From Kineosporia corallincola (GTDB lineage: Bacteria > Actinomycetota > Actinomycetes > Actinomycetales > Kineosporiaceae): a DNA stretch of 64,000 bases. The stretch lies in assembly GCF_018499875.1 (NCBI RefSeq), contig NZ_JAHBAY010000008.1, positions 186,001 to 250,000 of the forward strand, read 5' to 3'. The notes under the pieces are model-generated. The model was not told the DNA's origin, did no database searches, and worked only from the letters and a program-made list of their open reading frames with translations. Each line of letters opens with the position of its first letter. Position 1 is the stretch's first letter. A program made the translations under genes and the position numbers. Shown in pieces: positions 22,122 through 61,935 of this stretch.

Positions 22122-24782
22122 ATGTCCATCGCAGACCTGTCCATGTCTCCGTCCGACTCGGGCAATGGGCCGGATCTAGGACGCACGCCGCCGCAGGACG
22201 TGGCGGCGGAGCAGAGCGTGCTCGGCGGCATGATGCTGTCGAAGGACGCCATCGCCGACGTGGTCGAAGAGCTCCAGGGTGTGGACTTCTACCGCCCGGC
22301 CCACGAGCTGGTCTACGACGCGATCCTCGACCTCTACGGCCGGGGTGAGCCGGCCGACGCCGTCACCGTCGCCGCCGAGCTGACCAAGCGTGGCGAGCTG
22401 TCCAAGGTGGGTGGCCCGGCCTACATCCACACCCTGATCTCCTCGGTGCCCACCGCCGCGAACGCCGGCTACTACGCCCGCATCGTGCGGGAGCGCGCTG
22501 TGCTGCGCCGCCTGGTCGACGCCGGCACCCGCATCGTCCAGCTCGGCTACAACGGGGCCGACGGGCGCGGAGGCGGTGACGTGGAGGAGATCGTGAACTC
22601 GGCCCAGGCCGAGATCTACAAGGTCGCCGAGCAGCGCACCAGCGAGGACTACGCGGCCCTGTCCGAGGTGATCGAGGGGACGATCGACGAGATCGAGGCC
22701 TCCAGCCACCGGGGCGACGGGATGACCGGCGTGCCCACCGGCTTCGCCGACCTGGACGGCCTCACCAACGGCCTGCACCCGGGGCAGATGATCATCATCG
22801 CCGCACGTCCGGCTATGGGTAAAAGTACTTTCGGACTGGATATTTTACGATCTGCCGCGATTCATCACCGGATGACCTCGGTGATGTTCAGCCTGGAGAT
22901 GGGGCGCAACGAGATCACCATGCGCCTGCTCTCGGCCGAGGCCCGCATCCCGCTCCAGAACATGCGCAAGGGCACGATGCGGGAAGAGGACTGGACCCGC
23001 CTGGCCAAGACGATGGGCGACGTCAGCGACGCCCCGCTGTTCATCGACGACAGCCCGAACATGTCGCTGATGGAGATCCGGGCCAAGTGCCGGCGGCTCA
23101 AGCAGCGGCACGACCTGAAGCTCGTGGTGATCGACTACCTCCAGCTGATGACGAGCGGCAAGCGGGTGGAGAGCCGTCAGCAGGAGGTCTCCGAATTCTC
23201 CCGGGCCATCAAGCTTCTGGCCAAGGAACTCCAGCTGCCGGTGATCGCGCTCAGCCAGCTGAACCGTGGTCCGGAACAGCGGACGGACAAGAAGCCGGCG
23301 ATGTCCGACCTTCGTGAGTCGGGCTGCCTCACCGCCGACACCCGGGTGCTGCGTGCAGACACCGGCGCCGAGACCACGATGGGTGAGCTGTTCGCGAACG
23401 GTGCGAGAGACGTCCCGGTGTGGGCGCTCGACGACAGCCTGCGGTACGTGCGCCGCCATCTCACCCACGTCTTCTCCACCGGCACCAAGCAGGTGTTCAA
23501 GGTGCGGCTGGCCTCGGGCAAGGAGGTGCGGGCCACGGCCAACCATCCGTTCCTCACCTACGAGGGCTGGACGCCGATCGGTGACCTGACCCCGGGGGCG
23601 CGGGTGGCCGCACCCCGGCACGTGATGGCCCCCGAGCTGATCACCACCTGGCACGACGACGAGGTGGTCGTGCTCGCCCACCTGATCGGCGACGGGTCGT
23701 TCGTGAAGCGGCAGCCGATCCGCTACGCCAGCGTCGACGAGGCCAACCTGACGGCCGTGACCGAGGCCGCGCGGCACTTCGGTATCACCGCCGTGCGGGA
23801 CGAGCACGCCGCGGCCCGGGTGACCACGCTGCGGCTCCCGGCGCCGTACCGGCTGACCCACGGACGCCGGAATCCGATCGCGGCCTGGCTCGACGGCCTG
23901 GAGCTCTTCGGCCTGCGCAGCCACGAGAAGTTCGTGCCGGAGCCGGTCTTCTCCCTGCCCAAGCGGCAGATCTCACTGTTCCTGCGGCATCTGTGGGCCA
24001 CCGACGGCTCGGTCACGGTGAACCGGTCCGGACGCGGCGGGCGGGTGTACTACTCCTCCACCAGTCGCCGGCTGATCGACGACGTGTCCCGGCTGCTGCT
24101 GCGGTTCGGCATCTCTGCCCGGGTGCGCACCGTCATCAAGGCCGGGTACCGGCCCGGGTACACGCTCGACGTCTCCGGTGTCGACGACCAGCGTCGTTTC
24201 CTCAACGAGATCGGTGTGCACGGGGCCCGGGGGGAGTCGGTGACCCGGCTGCTGGAGGTCGTGAGAGACATCGAGGCCAACACCAATGTCGACACCGTGC
24301 CCAGGGAGATCTGGGGCCGGGTGCGGAATGTGCTGGCGGAGCAGAAGATGTCGCACCGGGAGTTCGCGGCCGCGATGGGCACGCAGTTCTGCGGCAGCAC
24401 GATGTGGAAGCACGCGCCCAGCCGGGAGCGGCTGGGCCGGGTGGCCGAGCTGCTGGGTGACGCCGACCTGGAGATGCACGCCCTGAACGACGTGCTCTGG
24501 GACACCGTGGTGGCAATCGAGCCGGACGGAGTCGAAGAGGTCTACGACGCAACGGTTGTCGGCAGTCACAACTTCATCGCCAACGGCATCGCCGTGCACA
24601 ACAGCATCGAGCAGGACGCCGACATGGTCATCCTGCTGCACCGGGAAGACGCGTACGAGAAGGAGTCACCGCGCGCGGGTGAGGCCGACTTCATCGTGGC
24701 CAAGCACCGTAACGGCCCCACCGACACGATCACCGTGGCGTTCCAGGGGCACTACTCGCGCTTCGTCGACATGGCCCAGTAG
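22122..24782 (+). CDS. dnaB: Replicative DNA helicase DnaB with intein
   Basis: 886 residues before splicing, 460 after. N-terminal primase-interacting domain (QDVAAEQSVLGGMMLSKDAIADVVEEL), RecA-type helicase domain with P-loop ARPAMGKST (K234), FSLEM motif, Walker B LVVIDYLQLM. The intein interrupts at SDLRESG | SIEQDAD, residues 402-827, followed by the last 59 residues (ILLHREDAY, FVAKHRNG-like region) of DnaB. Excision would restore a normal-length helicase. M. tuberculosis DnaB is, as I recall, also split at this downstream site. Codons 228-248 around the P-loop are strongly A/T-ending, unlike the rest of the gene. Weak Shine-Dalgarno AAGAGGA before ATG. Confidence 0.97.
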   Translation: MSIADLSMSPSDSGNGPDLGRTPPQDVAAEQSVLGGMMLSKDAIADVVEELQGVDFYRPAHELVYDAILDLYGRGEPADAVTVAAELTKRGELSKVGGPAYIHTLISSVPTAANAGYYARIVRERAVLRRLVDAGTRIVQLGYNGADGRGGGDVEEIVNSAQAEIYKVAEQRTSEDYAALSEVIEGTIDEIEASSHRGDGMTGVPTGFADLDGLTNGLHPGQMIIIAARPAMGKSTFGLDILRSAAIHHRMTSVMFSLEMGRNEITMRLLSAEARIPLQNMRKGTMREEDWTRLAKTMGDVSDAPLFIDDSPNMSLMEIRAKCRRLKQRHDLKLVVIDYLQLMTSGKRVESRQQEVSEFSRAIKLLAKELQLPVIALSQLNRGPEQRTDKKPAMSDLRESGCLTADTRVLRADTGAETTMGELFANGARDVPVWALDDSLRYVRRHLTHVFSTGTKQVFKVRLASGKEVRATANHPFLTYEGWTPIGDLTPGARVAAPRHVMAPELITTWHDDEVVVLAHLIGDGSFVKRQPIRYASVDEANLTAVTEAARHFGITAVRDEHAAARVTTLRLPAPYRLTHGRRNPIAAWLDGLELFGLRSHEKFVPEPVFSLPKRQISLFLRHLWATDGSVTVNRSGRGGRVYYSSTSRRLIDDVSRLLLRFGISARVRTVIKAGYRPGYTLDVSGVDDQRRFLNEIGVHGARGESVTRLLEVVRDIEANTNVDTVPREIWGRVRNVLAEQKMSHREFAAAMGTQFCGSTMWKHAPSRERLGRVAELLGDADLEMHALNDVLWDTVVAIEPDGVEEVYDATVVGSHNFIANGIAVHNSIEQDADMVILLHREDAYEKESPRAGEADFIVAKHRNGPTDTITVAFQGHYSRFVDMAQ
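22803..22865 (+). other. Anomalous low-GC codon patch over the DnaB P-loop
   Basis: Of 21 consecutive codons, 16 end in A or T, including TTA, AAA, AGT, ACT, GGA, CGA, TCT and two ATT, while flanking dnaB codons nearly all end in G or C. The patch encodes ARPAMGKST and the following helix, with the normal protein sequence kept. It begins and ends abruptly. Confidence 0.9.
23325..24602 (+). mobile_element. DnaB intein with LAGLIDADG homing endonuclease
   Basis: 426 residues, Cys1 (CLTADTRVL) to His-Asn (AVHN), next extein residue Ser. Block B is GKEVRATANHPFLT, block F is VYDATVVGSHNFIANG, block G ends in HN. The endonuclease has two dodecapeptide motifs, LAHLIGDGSF and LWATDGSV, both with the acidic residue, so it may be active. 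All splice-site residues are standard for a class 1 intein. Confidence 0.95.
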
Positions 24783-61860: not shown

Positions 61861-61935
61861 AACCAATTTCCTCTGACGTCCCGGGCAACACGTCCGCACT
61901 TGGCGGTTGGATTGGTTTAACTCATCGGTTTAGTT
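61861..61935. promoter_or_regulatory. TetR-MFS divergent control region
   Basis: AACCAAT (61861) and ATTGGTT (61911) form an inverted pair; GGTTTAA and GGTTTAG are direct repeats 13 bp apart just before the MFS gene; TTCTAGAA (61855) is a perfect palindrome close to the tetR start. Which one is the TetR site cannot be told. Confidence 0.45.

Follow-up and report, generated by a model that had tools for sequence, protein, structure and literature searches.

Why should a replicative helicase gene whose codons otherwise end almost throughout in G or C switch to rare codons over its P-loop and leave the protein unchanged? The question is raised by dnaB in a 64,000-nucleotide stretch of the Kineosporia corallincola genome (assembly GCF_018499875.1, contig NZ_JAHBAY010000008.1, positions 186,001 to 250,000; this whole stretch is referred to below as the window). 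Inteins are thought to cycle through invasion, fixation and loss, and host resistance to them is poorly known. Comparison of the window with its genus, its family and the wider actinobacteria indicates that the patch is probably a synonymously recoded, empty P-loop intein site that would be resistant to a homing endonuclease.

The GC content of third codon positions (GC3) is 6/21 (0.29) across codons 228–248 and 0.915 across the entire reading frame, and sliding GC3 along dnaB places the lowest 21-codon segment anywhere in the gene at position 22803. The initial annotation, made from the window alone, had described a block of A/T-ending codons over the P-loop within an otherwise G/C-ending gene; the position and the contrast stand, while its count of 16 such codons of 21 is corrected to 15. 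Against a sample of the same genome (the 64-kb window plus a further 400 kb, with 259 frames chosen for GC3 >0.85), the dnaB patch was the sole segment at 6/21 among 94,849 overlapping 21-codon segments, so that a GC3 this low is not common among the other genes sampled from this genome. A value of 7/21 was reached at three other places, starting 11–29 codons from the beginnings of open reading frames (ORFs) whose starts are possibly mis-called. A second low-GC3 stretch in the window (8/21, position 61895) lies 26 codons into a 526-codon frame, the start of which may likewise be mis-called. When codon rarity was scored as a z value relative to the codon usage of the same gene, the amino acids being kept constant, the patch reached z = 24, compared to a maximum of 5.1 among 4,003 control segments from 91 dnaB genes (0.3% above 3 and 0.02% above 5). 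This score was adopted in place of pairwise synonymous mismatch across genera, which was rejected as near saturation, confounded by amino-acid make-up and uninformative in g27 (presumably mycobacteria), and which gave a patch-to-rest ratio of 1.37 even in the intein-poor group g42.

Thirteen genomes of the family were searched, of which six, including the window's own (G000), belong to the same genus (G000 and G005–G009). Three of the six (G005, G006 and G007) have a dnaB match split at the P-loop by an intein inserted between GK and ST (403, 402 and 334 amino acids, respectively), each starting with alanine, and the two of these inteins that were scanned, in G005 and G006, contain the Pfam domain LAGLIDADG_3 (E-values 1e-8 and 3e-7). 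The same two inteins (L032 and L033) carry a cysteine-rich CxxC stretch of ~70 amino acids that is missing from the shorter G007 intein. No match to the P-loop intein was found anywhere in the whole genomes of G000, G008 and G009, and dnaB of the window has an empty site and an intact host protein at the P-loop. The insertion point of the relatives, between AAA (22821–22823) and AGT (22824–22826), falls within the patch, in keeping with the placement given by the initial annotation.

The protein encoded by the patch is identical in all six alleles, while its GC3 is 0.86, 0.90 and 0.71 in the intein-bearing G005, G006 and G007, and 0.29, 0.62 and 0.52 in the empty G000, G008 and G009; the patch is thus mostly lacking from the intein-bearing alleles of the genus. 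In the closest pair, G006 (intein) and G008 (empty), 13 of 20 patch codons differ compared to 39 of 403 elsewhere (Fisher p 1.4e-8), and across all nine intein/empty pairs of the genus 12–14 of the 20 patch codons differ against a synonymous divergence of 10–27% elsewhere. The seven other family genomes, all without a P-loop intein, have patch GC3 of 0.76–1.0. The genome of G008 also holds, on contig 11 (L044), a second, diverged dnaB paralogue with no intein and with mildly unusual P-loop codons of its own.

Given 15 of 21 codons ending in A or T, and 14 of the 18 substitutions that turn the G005 sequence into that of the window running from GC to AT, the patch could have been acquired as ~60 bp from a low-GC phage or plasmid dnaB, a recombination scar that the initial annotation had also proposed. 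The changes from G006 to G008 are less one-sided (7 transitions and 11 transversions; 11 GC to AT, 6 GC-neutral and 1 AT to GC), and GC content is kept by 6/18 changes in G008 and 5/15 in G009. Further, the protein is exactly that of the sister alleles, and no donor with the same codons was found among viral contigs, phages and plasmids by exact scan and blastn: the 29-base core had no exact match in the viral contigs, and six phage and six plasmid blastn records were only 70–88% identical over 31–97% of the 111-base query. These results weaken the proposal, and such an import is very unlikely.

The three intein-bearing alleles share a common core, being identical to one another up to 9 nt from the junction and differing at two positions within 21 nt, which may reflect co-conversion during homing. 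The empty sisters differ from this core by 4–5 mismatches within 9 nt and 9–11 within 21 nt, positions that may belong to the recognition sequence. The recoded alleles also differ from one another, at 6–14 of 20 codons, and one is a mosaic: the left 10 codons of G009 equal those of G000 exactly (4/10 shared with G008), its right 16 codons match G008 at 14/16 (5/16 identical to G000), and the joint coincides with the P-loop insertion point. It would appear, then, that species exchange recoded half-sites. The mosaic would also suit a scar of intein loss, in which an ancestor's P-loop intein was removed by recombination with an already recoded allele of another lineage, as would the recoded codons that persist beside the G007 intein. 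The mutual differences among recoded alleles speak against a scar of this kind, and the 10–27% synonymous divergence elsewhere in the intein/empty pairs requires any import to have been very short. Such a loss is unlikely, though the least so of the alternatives, and it overlaps with escape from the endonuclease, because the donor allele would have had to be recoded beforehand.

A second DnaB intein point, located after DLRESG, offers a comparison within the same genes. The window's own intein does lie at this downstream site, as first annotated, and the codons on either side of it are ordinary (z 1.0), as at the other occupied site in the genus (G005, z 0.8). The site is empty in G006, G007, G008 and G009, with z of 6.9, 9.7, 10.4 and 1.0, respectively, so that three of the four are recoded. 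In G007 the gene-wide peak of codon anomaly falls at this empty second site and not at the intein-occupied P-loop. Between G000 (occupied) and G008 (empty), 11 of 14 codons near the site differ compared to 21 of 77 in the flanks; between G000 and G009 the figures are 3 of 14 and 13 of 77. Among loci L045–L124, 6 of the 19 occupied downstream sites are surrounded by rare codons (z 3.1–4.5).

At each of the two sites, the changes seen in the genus centre on the cut point, a pattern that could also arise without selection if repeated cutting followed by error-prone repair piled up silent changes, of which the protein-neutral ones survive. The spectrum is mixed (7–12 transitions and 6–11 transversions in three comparisons), whole-codon swaps are present (TCC to AGY, CTG to TTA), and alleles that are often cut should be expected to become intein-bearing, all of which makes break-linked mutagenesis improbable. 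The features discussed are collected in Table 1.

Table 1. Coordinates within the window of dnaB and of the sites compared.
Feature	Positions	Strand	Basis or remarks
dnaB frame (replicative helicase) with its one intein	22122..24782	+	ATG start; first extein matches Pfam DnaB and DnaB_C
Synonymously recoded patch, 15/21 codons A/T-ending	22803..22865	+	codons 228–248; codon-usage z and GC3 windows
GK|ST junction AAA|AGT, empty here; 334–403 aa intein in same-genus G005, G006 and G007	22821..22826	+	
Intein at the second (downstream) DnaB site, 426 aa, LAGLIDADG endonuclease and splicing domain	23325..24602	+	Pfam LAGLIDADG_3, Intein_splicing
Flank on the N side of the downstream intein, codons mostly ordinary	23295..23324	+	recoded in G006, G007 and G008, where the site is empty

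Beyond the genus, 80 intein-less actinobacterial dnaB loci were scored, the best 80 of at least 589 relatives, with two of the 80 belonging to the window's own family. The P-loop exceeded z of 3 in 25 and z of 5 in 12 of the 80, compared to 0.3% of control segments above 3, with strong cases in Cellulomonas fimi (L050), C. terrae (L068), Cellulosimicrobium cellulans JZ5 (L104), Promicromonospora thailandica (L110) and Mobilicoccus caccae (L072). Matches to the P-loop intein (E-value ≤1e-25) occurred in 97 of 394 genomes of the class, some of which may be related inteins located elsewhere. For the nine families with at least three empty alleles, with intein shares counted by hand from the matches listed, the median z of the empty alleles tracks the proportion of genomes that are intein-positive (Spearman 0.73, p 0.025; Table 2).

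Table 2. Intein share and codon rarity at the empty P-loop in nine families.
Family	Intein-positive genomes	Median z	Empty alleles
f27 (presumably Streptomyces and kin)	1/39	0.53	20
f5	1/20	0.22	4
f35	3/25	1.04	11
f41	2/16	2.5	5
f1	3/13	5.0	8
f29	1/3	8.7	3
f37	2/5	2.9	3
f28	9/22	4.1	12 (two identical to Jiangella loci)
f25	23/40	4.6	15

An initial exposure test compared hand-picked groups of 54 and 24 alleles, with f25 and g62 left out, and gave p 1.6e-5, a value that is too small because alleles are related within families, as holds for the other allele-level p values. The test was redone with all scored alleles of the class sample: z exceeded 3 in 47 of 76 empty alleles of f1, f12, f25 and f28 compared to 6 of 40 of f5, f27, f35 and f41. 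A general codon feature of the P-loop was rejected on the basis of the intein-poor groups, where median z was 0.53 in g42 (20 alleles) and 0.22 in f5 (4 alleles), and the same A/T codons are for the most part not seen where intein history is scant. A DNA-level signal or translational pause, another option in the initial annotation, would fit a patch that sits over the catalytic motif, and many actinobacterial dnaB genes do show some rarity there. It is now hard to sustain and its probability is slight indeed, below that of every other alternative, as the rarity is weak or absent in the intein-bearing sisters, in g42 (z >3 in 1/20) and in f5 (0/4), the empty alleles differ from one another and have no single sequence in common, and the same pattern occurs at a second, unrelated site in the genus.

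Empty and occupied alleles were also compared directly outside the genus. Three loci (L154, L187 and L223) without an extractable gene were dropped, the near-identical family loci L040 and L041 were left out of z scoring, and removal of five duplicate pairs reduced the empty alleles from 208 to 203. A FastTree tree of 244 rows (249 alleles, less three never entered and two more dropped as badly aligned) holds at least 24 changes of intein state. The serine after the junction is encoded as AGY in 22 of 203 empty and 0 of 41 occupied alleles (p 0.03). Besides this serine and the AAA lysine, glycine and aspartate codons that end in A or T, at +3 and +5, are among the changes that recur. In g27, z exceeds 3 in 23 of 41 empty alleles, the Walker lysine is AAA in 27 of 41 empty compared to 6 of 27 fetched intein-bearing alleles (p 5e-4), and the excess of rarity separates empty alleles from those with mini-inteins (p 0.002). 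Eight g27 genomes have one split and one unsplit dnaB match; six of the unsplit copies yielded a score, half of them recoded and bearing AAA (L146, L179 and L181; z 4.2–5.4) and the other half not (L136, L148 and L176). In independent pairs drawn from the tree and restricted to full-length inteins, the AAA lysine had 6.0 of 12 pairs in its favour and 0.2 opposed (median p 0.03).

Several results weigh against a resistant site. Significance after correction for relatedness holds only for the Walker lysine codon and only without mini-inteins, whose inclusion gives 6.2 pairs to 1.0 of 13 (median p 0.125), and independent pairs show no significant difference in rarity (z >3, p 0.45, or 0.375 with mini-inteins; z >5, p 0.625). 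Nor do all alleles taken together at z >5 (45/208 empty and 5/41 occupied, p 0.20) or empty and full-length-intein alleles of g27 (p 0.25), the latter also having rare codons (mean z 2.8 compared to 3.4 in empty alleles). Half of six further empty alleles from the intein-rich f25 show nothing, one allele of the intein-poor g42 reaches z 5.8, and the family genera without the P-loop intein have a median z of 3.0 (five of seven genomes scored). At the downstream site the empty G009 is not recoded, and among the 80 loci outside the genus z exceeds 3 at 6/19 occupied and 7/61 empty sites and exceeds 5 at 0/19 and 6/61 (p 0.33). In the other family genera scored, unrecoded sites are no closer to the intein-bearing core than the empty sisters are (3–6 mismatches within 9 nt and 8–12 within 21 nt); since ordinary G/C-ending sites reach this by normal divergence, rare codons are unnecessary for mismatch. 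G007 bears the intein and is recoded 8–14 codons past the junction serine (L034: CGT TCT GCT GCA ATT), which would fit invasion of a recoded allele by an intein with short co-conversion. A lysate containing a phage TerL intein cut a site with only 75% identity over 20 nt each side (PMC5050341), so that 11 mismatches in 42 might not protect, and in Haloferax differences between species that were mostly synonymous did not prevent cleavage, although cutting at one site may have been weaker (PMC10643990). Cutting of diverged sites could explain why many changes are needed, or could mean that the changes give no protection.

With these points taken into account, an endonuclease-resistant recoded site, which the initial annotation had listed among its options, is supported by the presence and absence of inteins at two sites within the genus and by the link to intein frequency among families. 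The LAGLIDADG endonuclease of the P-loop DnaB intein would cut the version of the site with ordinary codons, and in intein-exposed lineages alleles with mismatches would escape cutting and invasion. As DnaB is essential and the amino acids of the P-loop are fixed, only synonymous substitutions can accumulate; as ordinary codons end in G or C, most escapes end in A or T; and as a homing endonuclease can accept a few mismatches and its specificity drifts, many substitutions build up, which would extend from about 7 codons before the junction to about 14 after it. Recoded half-sites may then pass between species by recombination, and phages are possible carriers, since 36 loci on viral contigs (L307–L342) have relatives of the P-loop intein, the best segments at ≤51% identity. 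The contrast between occupied and empty alleles at both sites in the genus, the purely synonymous nature of the changes there, the recurrence in other lineages and the mosaic allele are observed; protection from cleavage by the mismatches, and selection in place of mutation pressure as the force behind them, are inferred. Escape selection is favoured as it accounts for the position of the patch, the two-site pattern in the genus, the conservation of the protein, the A/T endings, the variety of alleles and the link with intein frequency. A broader proposal, that actinobacteria have repeatedly evolved codon-level immunity in dnaB, with empty sites rewritten in many lineages, resistant half-sites exchanged between species by recombination at the cut point, and the extent of recoding serving as a record of a lineage's exposure to a given homing endonuclease, is advanced only tentatively, its chances being judged slightly short of even.

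If escape from the endonuclease is the correct explanation, intein resistance would be readable in silent sites, and genomes would reveal which empty sites had been attacked. Silent sites would further indicate the bases that an endonuclease reads and the manner in which a host escapes a natural gene drive with a catalytic motif unchanged. It would also caution against reading every patch of odd codons in a conserved motif as a matter of translation, since such patches can be left behind by selfish DNA.

Immunity through changes in target nucleotides is known for the resistant recognition sites of yeast VDE/VMA1 and for phage intron endonucleases, in other hosts and genes. Resistant alleles of homing sites are a known idea, as judged from the available text of the sources cited here (PMC7282813, PMC10643990, PMC1508164, PMC1654191, PMC6195587, PMC8996256, PMC5050341), while synonymous recoding at the empty intein sites of bacterial dnaB had no description in the literature searched, which took in few subscription papers and the others partly in excerpt. 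Allele differences at the homing site decide cutting in yeast FBA1 with its WHO endonucleases and in Haloferax mcm, and point-mutant escapers arise under cutting (PMC7282813, PMC10643990). The WHO elements differ in replacing the 3' end of the gene, and so bring resistant sequence along (PMC7282813), and Haloferax resistance differs in resting mainly on a proline that blocks splicing (PMC10643990); dense synonymous recoding does not appear in the parts of either account consulted. DnaBi1 of M. smegmatis, at DnaB insertion site b, is likewise described at the P-loop, before its serine, and lacks an endonuclease (PMC6195587), whereas the G005 and G006 inteins have a LAGLIDADG domain and the site in the window is empty. 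Synthetic gene drives (PMC8996256) provide a further likeness, as silent changes there block the nuclease and leave an essential gene functional; those changes were designed or selected in the laboratory against an RNA-guided nuclease, whereas the dnaB case is natural and would be directed against a LAGLIDADG intein.

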